Of a stretch of 64,000 bases of DNA, positions 10,467 to 20,387 are shown piece by piece; position 1 is the stretch's first letter; each line of letters opens with the position of its first letter. The stretch is from Burkholderia cenocepacia. Its GTDB lineage: Bacteria; Pseudomonadota; Gammaproteobacteria; Burkholderiales; Burkholderiaceae. The position numbers and the translations under genes were made by a program. Below the pieces are notes generated by a model. The model had not been told where the DNA came from. It ran no database searches and saw only the letters and a list, made by a program, of their open reading frames with translations. The DNA lies in assembly GCF_900446215.1 (NCBI RefSeq), contig NZ_UAQZ01000001.1:1612001-1676000 (forward strand), read 5' to 3'.

Positions 10467-11420
10467 GTGAGCGTGCGCGATATCGAGGTGTTCCGGGCGG
10501 TGATGAACGCCGGCAGTACCAGCAAGGCGGCCGGCGTGCTGGAGATTTCGCAGCCGGCGGTGAGCCAGTCGATCCGGCGGCTCGAGGGCATGGCCGGGTT
10601 CCGCCTGTTCGAGCGCGTGCGCAGCCGGCTCGTGCCGACGCAGGAGGCCGTCGCGCTGATGCGCGACGTCGACCGGTACTTTCTCGGCTTCGAGGTGATC
10701 GAACACCGGATCCGCAGCCTGCGTTCGTATGGGTTGGGGCGCCTCGCGATCGCGTCGCTGCCCGCGCTCGGCACCGGCTTCCTGCCGCGCGTGATCGCGT
10801 CGTTCGACGCGGCGGCGCGCGACGTGCAGATTTCGCTGCAGGTGATGAGCTCCCGCGAGGTTCACGAGAAGGTGTCGGCCGGGCAGGTCGATTTCGGGCT
10901 GATGTCCGACGAGATGTCGATGGCCGGGCTCGAGCACTCGTCGTTCGTCAGCATGCCCGGTGTCGCGGTGATGAATGCCGCGCACCCGCTGGCGGCGAAA
11001 AGCGTGATCAAGGCCGACGATCTGTCGCAGGCGCCGTTCATCGCGCTGAACCCGGAGGACAGCACGCGGTTGCGGCTCGAAACGCAGTTGCGCGGGCTCG
11101 GCGTCGTGCTGAAGCCGCTGGTCGAAACGCCTTATTCGCATACCGTATGCGAACTCGCGCTGGCCGGCGTGGGCGTCGGTTTCGCGCATCCGCTGGTGGC
11201 GCTCGACTTCGCACAGCGCGGGCTCGTGGTCCGGCCGTTCGACGTCGATGTCGCGTTTACCGGCGTGCTGGTGTTTCGTCCGGGTACGCCGATGTCGGAG
11301 AACGCGCGCGTGTTTCTCCAGCACATGCGGATCCAGCTGGAGGCCGACCGGCATGCGCTGGCGGCGTTGTCAGGCAGGAAGGGGCGGGGTAGTGCGCGGG
11401 GGCCGGGCGGTGGCGGTTGA
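10467..11420 (+). CDS. LysR-family regulator, probable controller of the sulfur cluster
   Basis: 317 residues: winged HTH at about 3-62 (NAGSTSKAAGVLEISQPAVS) followed by a LysR substrate-binding domain. Translation probably begins at GTG 10467 with CCGGAG six bases upstream. The protein ends in a Gly/Arg-rich tail. It is divergent from the cystathionine lyase/cystine importer operon, the usual arrangement for a LysR activator of the opposite operon; the 108-base spacer contains the AT-rich ATAATTAGGTTGATAA. The inducer is unknown. Confidence 0.9.
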   Translation: MSVRDIEVFRAVMNAGSTSKAAGVLEISQPAVSQSIRRLEGMAGFRLFERVRSRLVPTQEAVALMRDVDRYFLGFEVIEHRIRSLRSYGLGRLAIASLPALGTGFLPRVIASFDAAARDVQISLQVMSSREVHEKVSAGQVDFGLMSDEMSMAGLEHSSFVSMPGVAVMNAAHPLAAKSVIKADDLSQAPFIALNPEDSTRLRLETQLRGLGVVLKPLVETPYSHTVCELALAGVGVGFAHPLVALDFAQRGLVVRPFDVDVAFTGVLVFRPGTPMSENARVFLQHMRIQLEADRHALAALSGRKGRGSARGPGGGG

Positions 11421-11782
11421 ATCGACAGCTGCTCGGGGGCCGTCCACCGATATCCCGATGTCCATGAGGGATTCCCCCGTAGCACGTGGCCACGCGCCCG
11501 TTCGACGCGGTACCCGTTCGCTCCGCGCGTTCCGGTAGCGCCTCCCGGTCCGCCGCGCCCGATTGTTTGCGTTTCGCGAATGGCGCGTTCGCCGGTTGTT
11601 CCATACCCGATCGGCGTCCGCGCACCTATCGTGGTGGCGTCGGCCGAGCCCGTTCGATGCGTCGAATCGGGACGCCGGCCGGCACTTCCTCGCGATTCGC
11701 GTCGCACACAAAAACCATCGGACACGAACCGTGCGCAGGCGCTGCGGCGCGCGCGGGCGAACCGGCGTCCACGGAGACGGAC
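11421..11782. other. Leader region before the hydroquinone cluster transporter
   Basis: 362 bases between the LysR gene and the MFS gene on the same strand. No gene seen. It holds the reverse-strand copy of a 16-bp box also found upstream of the dioxygenase genes (listed separately). Confidence 0.5.
11566..11581 (-). promoter_or_regulatory. Box ATTCGCGAAACGCAAA, copy 1 (upstream of the transporter)
   Basis: Read on the minus strand this 16-mer is identical to 14101-14116, which precedes the dioxygenase genes. It contains the palindrome TTCGCGAA. Its position before both plus-strand units of the hydroquinone cluster makes it a candidate site for the LysR regulator encoded between them. Confidence 0.55.
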
Positions 11783-13036
11783 ATGAAAGCAAACGAGTGG
11801 GATACCTCATACGAGTGGAAGGCGGTCACGCTGCTGGCGCTCGGTTTCGGGCTGGTCGGCCTCGACCGCTGGCTCATCGCGCCGCTGTTTCCTTCGATCA
11901 TGAAGGACCTGAACCTGAACGCGCAGGACGTCGGCAACTGCATCGGCGTGCTCGGCCTGTCGTGGGGCATCTTCGCCGCGCTGATGGGCGGCATCTCGGA
12001 CAAGATCGGTCGCCGGAAGGTGCTGATTCCGGCCATCATCGCGTTCTCGCTGCTGTCGGGCTTCTCGGGGCTCGCGGGCGGGTTGCTCGGCCTGATGGCG
12101 ATTCGCGGGCTGATGGGCGTCGCGGAAGGCTCGTTCTGTCCGACGAGTTTTGCCGCGACGGCCGATGCGTCGCATCCGCGGCGGCGCGGCCTGAACCTCG
12201 GCCTGCAGCAAAGCGGCTTCGCGCTGTTCGGGCTCGCGCTGTCGCCGATCATCGCCACGCAGTTGCTCGGTTTCGTGTCGTGGCGCTGGGTCTTCGCGCT
12301 CGTGGCCGTGCCCGGCCTGGTCCTCGGCGCGATCATGGTGTTCGTGATTCGCGAGCCGAAGGTCGCGCAGGACGTCGCGTCGGAGCATGCGCCCGCGTCG
12401 CTCGGCCACGTGCTCAAGCGCCGCAACATCCTCGTGGCGATGGCCGCGCTGTGCTGCGCGATGACCGGCGTCTTCGTGCTCGGCGCGCTGCTGCCGCTGT
12501 ACCTGACCGATTACCTGTCGCTCGGCACGCAGAAGATGGGCCTCGTCGTATCCGCGATCGGCTTCGGCGGCTTTCTCGGCCAGTTCGGCCTGCCCGGCCT
12601 GTCCGATCTGGTCGGCCGCCGCATCGCCAGCATCGTCGGCTTCGCGGGCACGGCCGTGATGCTCTACGTGTTCCGCGGCCTCGGCCCGCAGCCGCTCGCG
12701 CTGTTCGGCGTGCTGTTCGTCGCGTCGTTCTTCACGCTCGGGCTGGTGTCGCTGCTGTCCGGCCCGGTCGCGACCGAGGCCGCGCCGGTCGGCCTCGTGT
12801 CCACGTCCATCGGCGTGGTGGTCGGCGTCGGCGAGATCTTCGGCGGCGGCATCGCGCCGGCGATGGGCGGCTACGTGGCCGCACACTTTGGCATCCAGAA
12901 CATCCTGTGGCTGCCGATGGCCTCGGTGCTGCTCGGCATCGTGGTCAGCCTGCTGCTGAAGGAAACCGCGCCGGCCGTGCTGCAGCGCCGCGCGATCGTG
13001 CAGCCGGAGCTGGCCGCCGGAGAGCAAGCGCGGTAA
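11783..13036 (+). CDS. MFS transporter, probable aromatic compound uptake
   Basis: 417 residues, twelve predicted membrane segments, with the MFS loop 2-3 signature GGISDKIGRRKVL and its repeat GLSDLVGRRIAS after helix 8. The overall pattern fits aromatic acid/H+ symporters or related organic anion carriers. ATG 11783 is chosen over longer in-frame starts because GGAGACGG precedes it by five bases. It precedes the LysR and dioxygenase genes and shares the 16-bp box with them, so import of hydroquinone or a precursor is inferred. Confidence 0.85.
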   Translation: MKANEWDTSYEWKAVTLLALGFGLVGLDRWLIAPLFPSIMKDLNLNAQDVGNCIGVLGLSWGIFAALMGGISDKIGRRKVLIPAIIAFSLLSGFSGLAGGLLGLMAIRGLMGVAEGSFCPTSFAATADASHPRRRGLNLGLQQSGFALFGLALSPIIATQLLGFVSWRWVFALVAVPGLVLGAIMVFVIREPKVAQDVASEHAPASLGHVLKRRNILVAMAALCCAMTGVFVLGALLPLYLTDYLSLGTQKMGLVVSAIGFGGFLGQFGLPGLSDLVGRRIASIVGFAGTAVMLYVFRGLGPQPLALFGVLFVASFFTLGLVSLLSGPVATEAAPVGLVSTSIGVVVGVGEIFGGGIAPAMGGYVAAHFGIQNILWLPMASVLLGIVVSLLLKETAPAVLQRRAIVQPELAAGEQAR

Positions 13037-13158
13037 TGCCGGTGTCGATGGGTCGGGCGATTGACATCGATTTCGCGACACAGTGACGCCTTTCGCATGA
13101 CACCGCCTTGTATCCGCACAGGTAGACTGCCGGTTTCGCTGTCGAAAAAGGGCGCGGT

Positions 13159-14088
13159 ATGGACCGGTTTCTGAGCATCGAGGCATTCGTGAGGGTCGCG
13201 GAGGCGAGCAGCTTCGCCGAGGCGGCGCGGCAGCTGGGTGTGACGAGTTCGGTCGTGACGAACCGCATCCAGCAACTGGAGAAGTTCGTCAACGCGCCGT
13301 TGTTTCACCGCAGCACGCGCCACGTGCGGCTGTCCGAAGTCGGCGAAACGTTTTACCGCGAGTGCGCCGAGGTGGTGGGCCGCGTCAACGAGCTGACCGA
13401 CCAGATGCGCGAGCTGCGCGCGACACCGACCGGGCGGCTGCGCATCCAGATGCTGCCCGGCTTCGCGCTCGATCACTTCGGCAAGCCGCTCGCCGCGTTC
13501 AACCAGCGTTATCCGGGCATCCAGCTCGACATCATCGTCAACGATCGCGTCGTCGACCCCGTCGAAGAAGGGTTCGACATCGCGTTCCAGATCTTCCCGC
13601 CGATTTCCGAGTCGCTGATCGAGCGACGGCTGTTCACGGTCCGGCGCCTCTTCTGTGCCGCGCCCGCGTATGTCGACGCGCATGGTGCACCACAACATCC
13701 GCGCGATCTGCTGCAACACACGACGGCGCTGTATTCGGGCTACCCGTCGCGCAACCGCTGGACGATGACGCGCGGCGACGAGGTCGTCGAGATGGAGTTG
13801 CCGGGCATGATTCGCTCGAACTCCGTTCATCTGTTGCGCGAATACGCGCTGACCGGCGGCGGGGTCGTCTGCCTGCCCACGCTCGTGGCCAGCGACGCGC
13901 TCGTCGCGGGCCGCCTGGTGCCGATCCTGACCGACTACCAGCTCGCGCCGCTGAGCTTCGCCGCCGTCTATCCCGCCACGCAGCGACAGGCGTTGAAGGT
14001 GAAGGCCTTGGTCGAGTTCCTCGCGGAATACATCGGCGACGAATCGCCGTGGGACCGGCCGCTGCTGGCGCGCGGCTGGGTACGCTGA
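13159..14088 (+). CDS. LysR-family regulator of the hydroquinone cluster (inferred)
   Basis: 309 residues: HTH at about 2-60 (SSFAEAARQLGVTSSVVTNR) and a C-terminal effector domain of the subgroup with the TGRLRI linker and GPxx-like substrate pocket. It lies between the transporter and the dioxygenase genes, all on one strand, so it is likely the pathway regulator; a partial match to the shared box (TTCGCGACAC at 13072-13081) sits upstream of its own start, consistent with autoregulation. The inducer (hydroquinone or a ring-cleavage product) is not known. Confidence 0.88.
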   Translation: MDRFLSIEAFVRVAEASSFAEAARQLGVTSSVVTNRIQQLEKFVNAPLFHRSTRHVRLSEVGETFYRECAEVVGRVNELTDQMRELRATPTGRLRIQMLPGFALDHFGKPLAAFNQRYPGIQLDIIVNDRVVDPVEEGFDIAFQIFPPISESLIERRLFTVRRLFCAAPAYVDAHGAPQHPRDLLQHTTALYSGYPSRNRWTMTRGDEVVEMELPGMIRSNSVHLLREYALTGGGVVCLPTLVASDALVAGRLVPILTDYQLAPLSFAAVYPATQRQALKVKALVEFLAEYIGDESPWDRPLLARGWVR

Positions 14089-14100
14089 CCCGCGCGGATT

Positions 14101-14116
14101 ATTCGCGAAACGCAAA
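14101..14116 (+). promoter_or_regulatory. Box ATTCGCGAAACGCAAA, copy 2 (upstream of the dioxygenase genes)
   Basis: Identical 16-mer, in opposite orientation, to the box upstream of the MFS gene. It lies 87 bases before the small dioxygenase subunit start, where a LysR activator would bind. Confidence 0.6.
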
Positions 14117-14203
14117 TGCCGTAATCGCCATCCGTTGCCTTGTTGCTGGTGTGCGTTGCCCCTAGAGTGGAATCCAACAAGCGGTTCAACTCAGGAGACA
14201 GAC

Positions 14204-14698
14204 ATGACCAGCACGGCATTCCACACCGTCTTCGGTTCGCTCGACGGTTACCGGAAGGGCGAGATCGAAATCACCAGCGGCAGCGCGCAGCACTACGCCT
14301 TCTCGAACGTCTTCGAGGTGGCGTCGAAGTCGGCCCCTTACGAAAAGGTCGTCGCCGGCAAGAACCTCGAATACGTGATCGAAGTGCTGCGGACCGACGG
14401 CCAGTCGCCGTGGTTCGCGTGCGCGCACGACGAGTTCACGATCCAGATGGACGGCGAAGTCCGGATCGACTTCATCAAGCTCGACCACCCGCCGCAAGCG
14501 GGCCGCGGCACCGTGAGCGCAGGCGCGCATCCGGCCGGCCGAAACATGGGGTACGTCGTGTTGCGCAACGGGCATCAGGCGCTGTTGCCGGCCGGCTGTG
14601 CGTATCGCTTCACCGCGAGCCGGCCGGGCGTCGCGCTCGTCCAGACCGTGCTCGGCGAACTGTCCGTCGAGAAGTGGGCCGAGATCTGCCTGCACTGA
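14204..14698 (+). CDS. hapC: Hydroquinone 1,2-dioxygenase, small subunit
   Basis: 164 residues, about 18 kDa, matching the small subunit of two-component hydroquinone 1,2-dioxygenases (HapC/PnpC/HqdA). The fold appears cupin-like: GYVVLRNGHQALLPAGCAYRF is a typical cupin strand pair, but the metal site of the enzyme is in the large subunit. ATG 14204 has CAGGAGAC just upstream. It is followed 37 bases later by the large subunit, then by the two enzymes completing the pathway to 3-oxoadipate, which together make the assignment secure. The complex is cytoplasmic. Confidence 0.88.
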   Translation: MTSTAFHTVFGSLDGYRKGEIEITSGSAQHYAFSNVFEVASKSAPYEKVVAGKNLEYVIEVLRTDGQSPWFACAHDEFTIQMDGEVRIDFIKLDHPPQAGRGTVSAGAHPAGRNMGYVVLRNGHQALLPAGCAYRFTASRPGVALVQTVLGELSVEKWAEICLH

Positions 14699-14735
14699 CC
14701 GTCCGACCGCATTCGACTATTCCAGGAGACACGTT

Positions 14736-15755
14736 ATGGCCACCCTCGAGACCCTCGACCTTTCCACGGGCTTCGCCGCCGATCTGGTGCGATCGACCGA
14801 AGCCGATGCCGTCACCGGCTACCGCCGCTTTCAGCTCGGCGAATTCGCATTCCAGCGCGACGAATATTTCGTGAAGATCAGCTGGCCCGCGAAAGGCCAG
14901 ACCCGCACGCATGCGATGCCGGCCGACGCATTCCTGCGCGCGATGATGCGCGACGTCGCGTGGGGCTTCTTCTACGGCTGGGTGAATTTCGACCACGTAT
15001 TCGGCACGCGCAATCACTACGGCAAGGTCGACATGTATGCGGGCACCTTCAACGGCATTCTGAAGGACGCCGGCGTCGACTACACCGAGACCTTCGACAC
15101 GCCGACGATCATGGCGACCTTCAAGGCGATGCTGCACGACTGGACCAACGAAGGCTTCGACCCGTTCGCGGCGCCCGAGGAAACGGGCACGGCGTTCGGC
15201 CGCAAGCACGGCGACAACGGCGCGGCGATCGAGCGCACGCGGATCGCGACGCGCCGCATGCCGGGGCTCGAAGGCGACTCGCCGTTGCGCGACGACCTGC
15301 CGGTCAACCGCGCGTTTCTCGACGTCGCGCAGGACGAGCCGGAAGTGCACGTCGAGCCGGGCTTCGAGGGCGAGCTGCACGCGTTCAACCTGTTCAAGTA
15401 CCTGTCGCGCTCGGACGTGACGTGGAATCCGTCGGTCACGTCGGTGTGCGGGCGCAGCCTGTTCTGCCCGACCACCGAGGAATTCATCCTGCCGGTCTTC
15501 CACGGCAACGACCGCGTCGAATGGTTCCTGCAACTGTCCGACGAAATCGTGTGGGATATCGGCGACAAGAACACCGGCGCGCCGCGCGCCCGCATCACGA
15601 TGCGGGCCGGTGACATCTGCGCGATGCCGGCCGATATCCGGCACCAGGGATATTCGACGAAGCGCTCGATGCTGCTGGTCTGGGAAAACGCGACGCCGGA
15701 TCTGCCGCAACGCTACGAGAGCGGCGAGCTCGCGCCGTACCCGATCGCGTTCTAG
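14736..15755 (+). CDS. hapD: Hydroquinone 1,2-dioxygenase, large (iron-binding) subunit
   Basis: 339 residues, about 38 kDa. The enzyme opens hydroquinone between carbons 1 and 2 to give 4-hydroxymuconic semialdehyde using Fe(II). The cupin motif FHGNDRVEWF supplies His256, Asn258 and Glu262, and DIRHQGYS supplies His303; these positions coincide with the iron ligands I recall for the p-nitrophenol pathway enzyme PnpD, so the active site looks intact. ATG 14736 follows CCAGGAGAC. The small subunit gene is 37 bases upstream and the dehydrogenase 50 bases downstream. No gene producing hydroquinone is visible in the window. Confidence 0.92.
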   Translation: MATLETLDLSTGFAADLVRSTEADAVTGYRRFQLGEFAFQRDEYFVKISWPAKGQTRTHAMPADAFLRAMMRDVAWGFFYGWVNFDHVFGTRNHYGKVDMYAGTFNGILKDAGVDYTETFDTPTIMATFKAMLHDWTNEGFDPFAAPEETGTAFGRKHGDNGAAIERTRIATRRMPGLEGDSPLRDDLPVNRAFLDVAQDEPEVHVEPGFEGELHAFNLFKYLSRSDVTWNPSVTSVCGRSLFCPTTEEFILPVFHGNDRVEWFLQLSDEIVWDIGDKNTGAPRARITMRAGDICAMPADIRHQGYSTKRSMLLVWENATPDLPQRYESGELAPYPIAF

Positions 15756-15805
15756 GCCGCGCGTCAGTGTCTGCTTCCGCTTCCGCATTACACCGAGGAC
15801 GATTC

Positions 15806-17272
15806 ATGCAAACCCAACTCTTCATCGACGGGCGCTTCGTTGACGCCGTCGATCGCGGCACGATCGACGTGCTGAACCCGCACGATGGCTCCGTCATCAC
15901 GAAGATCGCGGCTGCCACCGCGGCGGACGTCGATCTGGCCGTCGACGCCGCGACGCGCGCCTTCCCGGCCTGGTCGGCGATGCCGGCCGCCGAGCGCGGC
16001 CGCCTGCTGCTGCGCCTGGCCGATGCGATCGAAGCGAACACGGAAGCGCTGGCGCAGCTCGAATCGCTGGACACCGGCCACCCGATTCGCGATTCGCGGG
16101 CGCTCGACGTGCCGCGCACGGCGGCCTGCTTCCGCTATTTCGGCGGCATGGCCGACAAGCTGCAAGGCTCGGTGATACCGGTCGACACCGGCTTCCTGAA
16201 CTACGTGCAGCGCGCGCCGATCGGCGTGGTCGGCCAGATCGTGCCGTGGAATTTTCCGCTGATGTTCACGAGCTGGAAGATGGGCCCGGCGCTGGCGGCC
16301 GGCAACACGGTGGTGCTCAAGCCGTCGGAAATCACGCCGCTGTCGACGTTGCGCATCGTCGAGCTGATGGCCGAGGTCGGATTTCCTGCCGGCGTCGTCA
16401 ACATCGTGCCCGGCTACGGCCATACGGCCGGCCAGCGGCTCGCCGAACATCCGGGCGTCGGCAAGATCGCGTTCACCGGCTCGACGGCGACCGGCCGGCG
16501 AATCGTCGAAGCATCGCAGGGCAACCTGAAGCGCGTGCAACTGGAACTGGGCGGCAAGGGCGCCAACATCGTGTTCGACGATGCCAACCTCGACGCGGCC
16601 ATCAACGGCGCCGCGTGGGCGATCTTCCACAACCAGGGGCAGGCGTGTATCGCGGGGTCGCGTCTGGTGCTGCACGAACGCATCGCGGACGCGTTTCTCG
16701 AACGCTTCGTCGCGCTCGCGTCGTCGATCCGGATCGGCAATCCGCTCGACCCGAATACCGAAATGGGGCCGCTCACGTCGAAGCAGCACCTCGATCGCGT
16801 GCTGTCGTATGTCGACGTCGCGCGCGAGCAGGGCGGCCGCGTGCTGACGGGCGGCAGCGCGCCGCAGGACCCGGCGCTCGCCAATGGCTATTACGTGCGC
16901 CCGACGATCGTCGAGGCGAAGCATGCGACCGACCGCGTCGCGCAGGAAGAAGTGTTCGGCCCGTTCGTCACCGTGCTGCGCTTCGGCAGCGACGACGAAG
17001 CGCTGGCCATCGCCAACGCGACGGAATACGGGCTCGGCAGCGGCCTGTGGACCAACGACCTGTCGCGCGCCCACCGGATGGCGGCGCGGATCGACGCGGG
17101 CATGTGCTGGATCAACTGCTACAAGCGCGTGAATCCGGGCAGCCCGTTCGGCGGCGTCGGCAAGTCGGGCTACGGCCGCGAGATGGGCTTCGAGGCGATG
17201 CACGACTACACGGAAGCGCGCTCGGTGTGGGTCAACGTCGACGGCAACGTGCCGCCGCATTTCAAGCGCTGA
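15806..17272 (+). CDS. 4-Hydroxymuconic semialdehyde dehydrogenase
   Basis: 488-residue NAD(P)-dependent aldehyde dehydrogenase. Catalytic residues are present: Glu247 in QLELGGKGAN and Cys281 in NQGQACIAGSR; the Rossmann motif is FTGSTATG. In this cluster (between hydroquinone dioxygenase and maleylacetate reductase) its job is to oxidise 4-hydroxymuconic semialdehyde to maleylacetate, equivalent to PnpE/HapE-type enzymes. ATG 15806 follows GAGGA by five bases. It ends seven bases before the next start, so the genes are co-transcribed. Confidence 0.9.
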   Translation: MQTQLFIDGRFVDAVDRGTIDVLNPHDGSVITKIAAATAADVDLAVDAATRAFPAWSAMPAAERGRLLLRLADAIEANTEALAQLESLDTGHPIRDSRALDVPRTAACFRYFGGMADKLQGSVIPVDTGFLNYVQRAPIGVVGQIVPWNFPLMFTSWKMGPALAAGNTVVLKPSEITPLSTLRIVELMAEVGFPAGVVNIVPGYGHTAGQRLAEHPGVGKIAFTGSTATGRRIVEASQGNLKRVQLELGGKGANIVFDDANLDAAINGAAWAIFHNQGQACIAGSRLVLHERIADAFLERFVALASSIRIGNPLDPNTEMGPLTSKQHLDRVLSYVDVAREQGGRVLTGGSAPQDPALANGYYVRPTIVEAKHATDRVAQEEVFGPFVTVLRFGSDDEALAIANATEYGLGSGLWTNDLSRAHRMAARIDAGMCWINCYKRVNPGSPFGGVGKSGYGREMGFEAMHDYTEARSVWVNVDGNVPPHFKR

Positions 17273-17279
17273 GGCCCGT

Positions 17280-18347
<1,068 letters not shown>

Positions 18348-18377
18348 ACGCCGGACAGGCGAACGGAGAACGACGTG

Positions 18378-18449
18378 ATGAATGACCAGACCGGCCTGCA
18401 CGGCTTGCACCGCGAAGCGATGTTCTGCTTCGTCCTCGATCGGAGCTGA
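18378..18449 (+). CDS. Putative 23-residue peptide in the hydroquinone operon
   Basis: Translates as a short peptide beginning MNDQTGLHGLHREAMF and ending in VLDRS. CGGAGAA lies a suitable distance before ATG 18378, most codons end in G or C like the surrounding genes, and the stop is five bases before the YciI-like start, which has its own GGAG inside the end of this ORF. It could be a real micropeptide, a coupling leader, or the remnant of a larger gene. It resembles no family I know. Confidence 0.35.
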   Translation: MNDQTGLHGLHREAMFCFVLDRS

Positions 18450-18454
18450 TCGCC

Positions 18455-18766
18455 ATGGCGCGTTTTTTTGCGGTGTTTGCCACCGACCAGCCGGGCATGC
18501 GTGACGTGCGCGACCGCATGCGGCCGATTCACCGGACATATCTGCGCTCGGCGGCCGAGCATGGCGTGTATGTGCGGCTCGGCGGCCCGACGCTGGACCC
18601 GCAGGACGATGCGATGAACGGCACGCTGCTCGTCGTCGAGGCGGACGACATCCATGCGGTGATGCAGTTCATCGGCAACGATCCGTATGTGAAGGAGGGC
18701 CTGTTCTCGCGCGTCGAGGTGCGCCCGTGGGACTGGAGCCTCGGCAACCCCGAGCACAGGGTGTGA
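18455..18766 (+). CDS. YciI-like protein
   Basis: 103 residues of the YCII ferredoxin-like fold: FFAVFATDQPGMRDVRDRMR at the start, the central HGVYVRLGGPTLDP and the closing EVRPWDWSLG are typical of the family. Members occur beside aromatic ring-cleavage genes and are thought to be small lactone or muconate-type enzymes or binding proteins; the exact role is unproven. GGAG lies nine bases before ATG 18455. The stop is three bases from the Rieske gene, so both belong to the hydroquinone operon. Confidence 0.8.
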   Translation: MARFFAVFATDQPGMRDVRDRMRPIHRTYLRSAAEHGVYVRLGGPTLDPQDDAMNGTLLVVEADDIHAVMQFIGNDPYVKEGLFSRVEVRPWDWSLGNPEHRV

Positions 18767-18769
18767 GCG

Positions 18770-19105
18770 ATGGAAGCGAAACAGCTGTGTCGCGTGGCCG
18801 ATGTGCCCGACGGCGGCGCGCGGGTCGTCGACGAAGCCTGCATCGGCCGTCCCGTCATCGTCGTGCGGCGTGGCGAGCAGGTGTGGGCGTACGTGAATCG
18901 TTGCCCGCACTTTTCGGTGCCGCTCGATTTCGTGCCGGGCAATGTGTCGTGCTACCGGTCGCAGGTGTTGATGTGCGCGCATCACAGTGCGTTGTTCCGG
19001 TTCGATGATGGCGTGTGTATCGACGGACCCTGCACGGGGGCCGGGCTGGAAACCGTGGCCGTCGAGGTGGACGCATCCGCATGGATCGTCTTTCGGGGCG
19101 CTTGA
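18770..19105 (+). CDS. Rieske [2Fe-2S] ferredoxin-like protein
   Basis: 111 residues with one Rieske cluster motif: CPH at about 45-47 and CAHH about 20 residues later, giving the two Cys and two His ligands. Such free ferredoxins pass electrons to oxygenases or keep extradiol-type iron centres reduced. Because hydroquinone dioxygenase itself needs no electron donor, the likely roles are reactivation of an oxidised Fe(III) dioxygenase or service to a hydroxylase outside the window. Start is three bases after the YciI-like gene. Confidence 0.85.
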   Translation: MEAKQLCRVADVPDGGARVVDEACIGRPVIVVRRGEQVWAYVNRCPHFSVPLDFVPGNVSCYRSQVLMCAHHSALFRFDDGVCIDGPCTGAGLETVAVEVDASAWIVFRGA

Positions 19106-19298
19106 CTTGGCGCATGTTGAATGCGTGCGCGTCGATGCGGGTTCACCGGGAATTGTTCTGAATTGATCGATCGGTAAAACCCATTTCCGGTGTTGATGTG
19201 ACTGCCTGAATCAACGCGATTTTCCACGAAGCAATGAGCGAACACCCGCCTCGCAGCGGGTGACGGACTCGCATTTTCATAAAAAAGACGGAGACGAC

Positions 19299-20387
19299 AT
19301 GAAACTCAGGTTTGGTGTATTGGCGGTGCTTGCCGTGGCGCAGGGCGCATGGGCGCAAAGCAGCGTGACGATGTTCGGGCTGATCGATTCCGGCATCACG
19401 TATGTCAGCAACGAGGGCGGCGGAAAGAACGTCAAGTTCGACGACGGCATATTCGCGCCCAACCTGTTCGGCCTGCGCGGCATCGAGGATCTCGGCGGCG
19501 GGTATCGCGCGACCTTCGCGCTCGTGAACCAGTTCTCGATGGCGAACGGCAGCATCATCGGGACCGGGATTTTCGGGCGCAATGCCTACGTGGGGATCGA
19601 GAGCGACCGCTTCGGCAGCATCACGCTGGGCAATCAGTACGACTTCATGGTCGATGCATTGTTTTCAAAGGGCAACGCGATTTCGCGGGACATTTCCGGG
19701 CTGTACGGCTTTCGGAACGGCCCGTTCCAGCGTCTCGCGCTGCCGGGCAATCCGACCGGCGCATTCGACTGGGACCGTACCGCAGGCAGCAAGCCGATCG
19801 CGAATTCGGTCAAGTACAGCTCGCCGACCGTCGCGGGTTTTTCCGGCGGCGTGATGTATGCGTTCGGCGGCGTCGCGGGTTCGATCGGCGCGGACAACGC
19901 CGTCAGCGCCGGCGTGAACTACGAGCTCGGGGCCTTCGGCGTGGGCGCGGCCTATACGAACGAGAAATACGGTCCGGCGCCGGGTGTGCCATCGACCAGC
20001 GTGCGCAACTGGGGTGTCGGGATGCACTACGACTTCGGTGTCGTGACCGCGAAGGCGCTGATGACCACCGTTCGCAATTCGTTCAACGATGCGGGCGTGT
20101 GGATGGCCGAGGCCGGCGGCTTGTGGCGAATCAGGCCGGACGTCGTGCTGGGCGCGAAATACATGTACATGAAGGGCAATGAAGCGTTGAACGACGACCA
20201 TGCGCATCAGGTCAGCGTCGCGCTTCAATACCTGTTGTCGAAGCGGACGATGGTGTATGTGTCGGCGGATTATCAGCGCGCGAATGGCGGCGCGAATGCG
20301 CAGGTGAACGGCGTGCTGGATCCGAACGGGGCGTCGAGTTCCGCGAGTCAGGCGGTGGCGCGGGTGGGGGTGCATACGGTGTTTTGA
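19299..20387 (+). CDS. Outer membrane porin, Burkholderia general porin type
   Basis: 362 residues. Signal peptide about 1-20 ends GAWAQ, followed at once by SSVTMFGLIDSGITYVSN, the standard first strand of Gram-negative trimeric porins; SMANGSIIGTGIFGRNAYVG is the conserved loop before the constriction zone, and the chain ends in aromatic-terminated VGVHTVF. ATG 19299 is favoured over the in-frame 19260 by GACGGAGACG upstream and the signal peptide. It closes the hydroquinone cluster on the same strand, separated from the Rieske gene by 193 bases that could hold its own promoter, and may admit the aromatic substrate. Confidence 0.93.
   Translation: MKLRFGVLAVLAVAQGAWAQSSVTMFGLIDSGITYVSNEGGGKNVKFDDGIFAPNLFGLRGIEDLGGGYRATFALVNQFSMANGSIIGTGIFGRNAYVGIESDRFGSITLGNQYDFMVDALFSKGNAISRDISGLYGFRNGPFQRLALPGNPTGAFDWDRTAGSKPIANSVKYSSPTVAGFSGGVMYAFGGVAGSIGADNAVSAGVNYELGAFGVGAAYTNEKYGPAPGVPSTSVRNWGVGMHYDFGVVTAKALMTTVRNSFNDAGVWMAEAGGLWRIRPDVVLGAKYMYMKGNEALNDDHAHQVSVALQYLLSKRTMVYVSADYQRANGGANAQVNGVLDPNGASSSASQAVARVGVHTVF

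Follow-up and report, generated by a model that had tools for sequence, protein, structure and literature searches.

The window, a stretch of 64,000 nucleotides from Burkholderia cenocepacia, carries a hydroquinone catabolic operon in which the genes for a dioxygenase that depends on ferrous iron are accompanied by a gene for a small Rieske [2Fe-2S] ferredoxin. The operon genes are all present, open and co-directional on the forward strand, with a core at 14204–18347 that is followed by genes for a YciI-family protein, the Rieske protein and a porin (Table 1). Judged by its sequence, the locus is a variant of a known operon that lacks pnpC, the gene for hydroxyquinol 1,2-dioxygenase (PnpG in the following, PnpC being used for the small subunit of the hydroquinone dioxygenase), because only a scar lies between the maleylacetate reductase and YciI genes. 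New here is the comparative part, namely the near-constant linkage of the Rieske gene with the dioxygenase. These linkage data support, short of proof, the reading that the Rieske protein keeps the dioxygenase iron ferrous. As an explanation of the whole locus, a hydroquinone operon with Rieske-based iron upkeep and a side role for the YciI protein appears to us evenly poised between right and wrong.

The regions 14204–14698 and 14736–15755 encode, by their matches, both subunits of a PnpCD-type hydroquinone 1,2-dioxygenase. PnpD aligns collinearly and without gaps over residues 1–339 with the large subunit of PDB entry 4zxa, which we take to be the Pseudomonas WBC-3 enzyme, and it is adjoined by the gene of the cognate small subunit, recognized by its match to the small subunit of that entry. 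Positions 256, 258, 262 and 303 of PnpD, presumably the iron ligands, are His, Asn, Glu and His, just as the original prediction from this DNA had stated, and the HxNx3Ex40H pattern recurs in 79 of 80 related loci; for this and the further counts over 80 loci, 80 of 333 confirmed related genome loci were used, the window being extra unless stated. The exception, L073, has an apparent frameshift before the fourth ligand. PnpD is present once in the window's own genome. Several public plasmid records label PnpD as hydroxyquinol 1,2-dioxygenase, a misleading name for what is a hydroquinone dioxygenase by match.

The dehydrogenase matches the gamma-hydroxymuconic semialdehyde dehydrogenase 4go4, a closer entry (4o6r) being titled only aldehyde dehydrogenase; likewise, the reductase matches the maleylacetate reductases 3hl0 and 3w5s, with a closer entry (3jzd) titled iron-containing alcohol dehydrogenase. 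The lower hydroquinone pathway that had been predicted is thus present, as structure and Pfam matches identify PnpC, PnpD, dehydrogenase and maleylacetate reductase. By homology, these enzymes almost certainly take hydroquinone to 3-oxoadipate: PnpCD, with ferrous iron, would convert hydroquinone to 4-hydroxymuconic semialdehyde, the dehydrogenase would turn this into maleylacetate, and the reductase would form 3-oxoadipate. In line with the predicted lack of a hydroxylase making hydroquinone, a Pfam scan of the proteins in 10467–20387 found no hydroxylase. In searches of the window's own genome for PnpA-like flavin hydroxylases and FMO-like proteins, no listed match fell into the window, other hydroxylase families being untested; a PnpA-like hydroxylase of this genome was rejected as the source of hydroquinone, the best match having 31% identity and lying outside the window. 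Elsewhere, nine hydroquinone clusters, seven of Achromobacter and two of Cupriavidus (L054, L055, L056, L059, L061, L063, L064, L066 and L068), have a broken maleylacetate reductase gene or none.

The gene order of the operon recurs in related loci, as a neighborhood search proposed with the prediction confirmed, usually with PnpG before YciI. In these usual relatives, an intact PnpG gene (about 290 amino acids) sits between the reductase and YciI genes. PnpG is full in 69 of 81 rows (the window and the 80 loci) and partial or absent in 12, among them L052, where a contig end is the cause. A remnant was recognized in nine of the other 11 (none in L039 and L049), although it spans only about eight codons in L008, L009 and L011. 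Eight of the nine remnants are open as far as the former stop codon that immediately precedes YciI, that of L023 being shifted; because of shared ancestry, these rows represent fewer than eight independent cases. The scar in the window (18375–18449), which the original prediction overlooked, translates as VMNDQTGLHGLHREAMFCFVLDRS followed by a stop. Its end resembles that of the intact gene in L010 (TYDFVLDRS and stop) and the L096 scar, MNDQIGLNGPYREATYDFVLDRS followed by a stop, with which it shares 16 of 23 residues in a count by eye. The comparison shows that the window has lost its predicted hydroxyquinol side branch through an internal pnpG deletion. On a tree of 80 rows, with poor support for 26 of its 77 inner branches, at least six changes are needed for PnpG, three for maleylacetate reductase and one for YciI. 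The scars of L012 (12636–12911) and L106 contain a long in-frame six-base repeat encoding Ser-Leu repeats, as if a microsatellite had grown in the dying gene. According to the text on Fig. 2 of PMC6063337, some Burkholderia have no hydroxyquinol 1,2-dioxygenase; this absence is common to those clusters and the window, but there the absence alone is reported, whereas here the scar, its frame and the repeated loss are described.

The YciI and Rieske genes had been called unusual accessory genes. They are in fact ordinary operon members, because the published cluster pnpC1C2DECX1X2 names them as pnpX1 and pnpX2, which the legend of Fig. 2 in PMC6063337 gives for ten strains as a YciI family protein and a ferredoxin. 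YciI is full-length in 70 of the 80 related loci and the Rieske gene in 79 (80 of 81 with the window), the exception being L052, where it is cut by the contig end. The Rieske gene persists where hydroxyquinol dioxygenase, YciI or the reductase has been lost: L052 apart, all 11 other PnpG-less rows retain both YciI and Rieske, and nine YciI-less loci, all from Achromobacter, retain the Rieske gene. It is likewise kept in Caballeronia NK8 and Conchiformibius, which have no YciI gene annotated within the stretch seen. Among 398 Burkholderiaceae genomes, 113 Rieske matches score 125 bits or more (the next one 91.2) and fall in 109 genomes, and 111 of these matches follow PnpD downstream on its own strand. 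Seen from the dioxygenase, 111 of 113 PnpD places (in 107 genomes) have the Rieske gene, after the exclusion of two rows holding end pieces of split genes. Two Rieske places have no PnpD (L152 and L153); there, the match is N-terminally incomplete. The ratio of nonsynonymous to synonymous substitution rates (dN/dS) of the Rieske gene is 0.090 in seven of the 11 PnpG-less rows and 0.082 in eight of the 69 PnpG-bearing rows, within the 0.07–0.18 of the pathway enzymes. In L155 (10374–15206), the reductase and Rieske genes are separated by an ABC transporter set of the branched-chain type, whose binding protein and one permease Pfam confirmed.

The protein itself has the Rieske fold and the CxH...CxxH ligands, and Rieske is the only Pfam domain found in it. 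Its ligands C45, H47, C69 and H72 are invariant in a diverse set of 25 rows, as are two extra cysteines, C83 and C88, and the CxHx21CxxH pattern occurs in 78 of 79 loci, with Tyr for the last ligand His in L033. A plasmid search with this protein yielded 44 records, of which 35 were examined, the remaining nine being from organisms also met among these; the neighborhood figures are plain counts with no statistical null, from related rows and a collection probably rich in catabolic genes. By coordinates, PnpD lies within 8 kb in 16 of the 44. Ten relatives have a VOC gene directly upstream of the Rieske gene (in Massilia, two Bradyrhizobium, Diaphorobacter, Azospirillum, B. anthina, Roseinatronobacter, Alloyangia, Rhizobium and P. 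hospita); Pfam confirmed the glyoxalase/dioxygenase superfamily in all eight VOC genes scanned, with matches to extradiol models far under their cut-offs. In an alignment of the Azospirillum VOC protein with BphC (1han), two His and one Glu coincide, which we take to be the iron ligands of BphC. Four further relatives neighbor HppD or HmgA (Paracoccus, Sphingomonas, Sulfitobacter and Halomonas), and five have no dioxygenase within the flank (Bradyrhizobium BWA-3-5, Amphritea, Roseomonas, Acinetobacter and P. sprentiae). Two of three lower-scoring Burkholderiaceae relatives, L172 and L173, are again VOC–Rieske pairs; L174 is not. A tree of 32 such Rieske proteins groups them by partner type, needing 5 changes where shuffling gives 16.4 on average, although no more than 3 of its 29 inner branches have good support.

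How far the pairing extends was seen with a profile of dioxygenase-linked Rieske members, which matched in 116 of 299 genomes taken from across the phylum. The sample comprised 80 regions of 127 listed matches, that is, the first 72 minus the window's own Rieske gene and G274 (near a contig start), plus ten lower ones, and the dioxygenase panel covered relatives of PnpD, PnpC, VOC, HppD and HmgA only. Just eight regions have a panel dioxygenase near the Rieske gene (L198, L199, L200, L203, L205, L231, L233 and L234). A co-directional frame lies upstream of it in 57 regions, 49 of them without a panel dioxygenase, and 38 of these 49 were scanned with Pfam. These numbers exclude partnership with Fe(II) dioxygenases as a general rule for this Rieske subfamily; since so few regions are paired, the pairing looks like a trait of certain clades rather than of the subfamily. 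In eight regions (L247, from the window's own genome, L248, L256, L258, L260, L264, L268 and L275), the Rieske gene belongs to a phosphatase–SppA cluster, lying between what we take to be HAD phosphatase-like and SppA-like genes. In six others (L201, L207, L212, L213, L226 and L237), it stands directly downstream of gpsA (3), YciI (2) or EVE (1). A TsaD-GpsA-YciI-EVE operon has been described, and the word Rieske is absent from the portions of that paper available to us (PMC7641849).

For the window, we propose that the Rieske protein would act as a one-electron carrier that returns oxidized PnpCD iron to Fe(II) and would itself be fed by a reductase encoded elsewhere. This iron upkeep gains indirect support because the linkage is near-obligate and distant relatives are paired with other Fe(II) dioxygenases, and we rate it a serious possibility that falls a little short of even. 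The original suggestion that the Rieske protein may reactivate the dioxygenase is to this extent, and only indirectly, supported. In the sections of PMC3222310 consulted, the TTNP3 hydroquinone dioxygenase loses activity in air or with peroxide and partially recovers it with Fe(II) and ascorbate, and it is suggested in general terms that ferredoxins reverse such iron oxidation in vivo. Among titles and abstract openings, we found no report in which a Rieske protein reactivates a dioxygenase of the hydroquinone, extradiol, HppD or HmgA kind. With more reserve, we suggest that several clades of one small Rieske subfamily might be dedicated electron donors that keep mononuclear Fe(II) aromatic dioxygenases with unlike folds (PnpCD, VOC extradiol enzymes, HppD and HmgA) ferrous.

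Several observations speak against such a role. The two PnpD places without a Rieske gene, L150 and L151, are second PnpCD copies, and further PnpCD clusters (L087, L088, L089, L169, L170, L195, L196 and L197) have no such Rieske gene in the stretch seen. In the phylum sample, 72 of 80 Rieske relatives have no partner from the dioxygenase panel. The scan of proteins in 10467–20387 turned up no ferredoxin reductase, and a flavin adenine dinucleotide (FAD) oxidoreductase beside VOC–Rieske pairs was rejected as the missing reductase for the four tested, which belong to a flavin hydroxylase family. From the literature, recombinant PnpC1C2 is reported to convert hydroquinone in vitro on its own (PMC4871426, as far as seen), pnpC1C2DE is stated to be sufficient (PMC6063337, likewise), and substrate inactivation of the TTNP3 enzyme was not reversed by Fe(II) (PMC3222310).

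L150 and L151 themselves have a FAD_binding_3 hydroxylase and an FMN-reductase/flavodoxin-family gene, presumably WrbA-like, adjoining PnpD, while the stretch shows no match to the dehydrogenase, the reductase or the Rieske protein. This arrangement would fit an alternative that we consider unlikely, in which the Rieske protein, perhaps together with YciI, handles benzoquinone or semiquinone from hydroquinone autoxidation rather than the dioxygenase iron; hydroquinone and homogentisate are both para-diphenols, and related Rieske genes stand beside HppD and HmgA. However, the ten VOC-linked plasmid relatives adjoin extradiol-like genes whose substrates are not necessarily para-diphenols, the protein has no Pfam domain other than Rieske, and a one-electron carrier would probably be a poor quinone reductase. 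To a similar degree, we doubt that the accessory genes do nothing directly for the dioxygenase, being either dispensable passengers or a redox sensor retained for regulation. While the stated sufficiency of pnpC1C2DE and the PnpCD clusters without a Rieske gene agree with this, a dN/dS inside the range of the pathway enzymes and full-length retention in 79 of 80 loci argue otherwise. Finally, it is very improbable that the Rieske protein serves PnpG or YciI instead of PnpCD: the YciI gene is its neighbor, 3 bases apart in the window, and occurs near related Rieske genes elsewhere (L201, L226 and L227; directly upstream in L226 and L237), but retention of the Rieske gene after loss of either candidate partner, as described above for the PnpG-less rows and for Achromobacter, Caballeronia NK8 and Conchiformibius, weakens both versions.

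For the YciI protein, the better of two solved matches in a profile search is TftG (4lbh), at only 58 bits. Residues H26 and D76, aligned with the His and Asp of TftG, are invariant in 18 of 18 rows, and TftG requires its His-Asp dyad according to the part of PMC7641849 seen. By analogy with TftG, our best guess is that the YciI protein might act on a side product that derives from hydroquinone or is a substituted hydroquinone, though we regard this as somewhat doubtful; TftG is a 5-chloro-2-hydroxyhydroquinone dehydrochlorinase, whereas no chlorinated pathway was recognized at this locus.

The features of the locus are listed in Table 1, in which Pfam bears out the YciI, Rieske and porin assignments made in the prediction. 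An MFS transporter lies upstream of the operon in 48 of the 80 related loci, and that of the window scores far under cut-off against aromatic-acid symporter models. The LysR-type regulator is present in many related loci. The inverted repeat, in a reading by eye of an 18-row alignment, is recognizable as a block in 16 rows, with both arms exact in seven. The porin, for which ATG 19299 is a likelier start than GTG 19260, follows directly downstream in 20 of 80 loci. Promoter and terminator scans gave signals no higher than in shuffles, and a search of viral contigs gave no match.

Table 1. Features of the hydroquinone locus, in window positions
Feature	Position	Strand	Evidence or remark
MFS transporter	11783..13036	+	PF07690 E 2.2e-45 (Pfam run on 11786-13036); start codon taken from reading frame
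LysR-type regulator	13159..14088	+	PF03466, PF00126; same direction as the operon
Inverted repeat GATTAT...GTAATC, candidate regulator site (putative function)	14097..14126		Upstream of pnpC
PnpC, hydroquinone 1,2-dioxygenase small subunit	14204..14698	+	4zxa_A E 3e-71
PnpD, hydroquinone 1,2-dioxygenase large subunit, 339 aa, H256 N258 E262 H303	14736..15755	+	4zxa_W E 3.2e-188; PF18191 E 5.6e-83
4-Hydroxymuconic semialdehyde dehydrogenase	15806..17272	+	4go4 E 1.2e-275
Maleylacetate reductase	17280..18347	+	3hl0, 3w5s
Hydroxyquinol 1,2-dioxygenase (PnpG) deletion scar, 24 codons, in frame to old stop	18375..18449	+	Compared with intact gene L010:12667-13539
YciI-family protein (PnpX1)	18455..18766	+	PF03795; nearest solved relative TftG, 4lbh E 9.6e-15 (profile)
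Rieske [2Fe-2S] ferredoxin (PnpX2), CxHx21CxxH	18770..19105	+	PF00355
Porin	19299..20387	+	PF13609

The locus itself is ordinary; what merits attention is that a small Rieske protein can be linked, in a way open to test, with Fe(II) dioxygenases that differ in fold. If the wider proposal for several Rieske clades is true, these proteins would solve for a second time, by a Rieske center, the problem for which catechol 2,3-dioxygenase has XylT-type ferredoxins. Should the Rieske protein restore oxidized hydroquinone dioxygenase, one would expect as much of the pairs with VOC, HppD and HmgA; this would bear on pathways for tyrosine and other aromatics and be of use to those who work with these unstable enzymes. 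XylT is a plant-type [2Fe-2S] ferredoxin (Fer2 domain), whereas the window protein is a Rieske protein by Pfam; the comparison with XylT made in the original prediction therefore holds at most as a functional analogy of the proposed role and not as homology. With the Rieske ferredoxins T4moC, BphF and CarAc, the window protein shares the fold and the cluster ligands, but it differs in its CxHx21CxxH loop and its extra C83/C88, and no oxygenase or reductase partner gene was found for it in the operon.

The closest known systems are the clusters pnpC1C2DECX1X2 of Pseudomonas putida DLL-E4 and pnpCDEFG of Pseudomonas sp. WBC-3. Hydroquinone is the effector of the DLL-E4 operon, and the expression table of that study is without X1 and X2 (PMC4871426, in the part available). 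In contrast to both clusters, the window has a scar in place of hydroxyquinol 1,2-dioxygenase, an MFS transporter and a porin at its flanks, and no hydroxylase or quinone reductase gene recognized beside the operon. In the sources as far as seen, the accessory genes pnpX1 and pnpX2, the absence of hydroxyquinol dioxygenase in some Burkholderia and the general idea of reactivation are already published, and pnpX2, named there without a test that we found in these sources, gains its first concrete hypothesis. What the window shares with these clusters is gene order and functions, C1, C2, D, E, X1 and X2 following one another as in DLL-E4.

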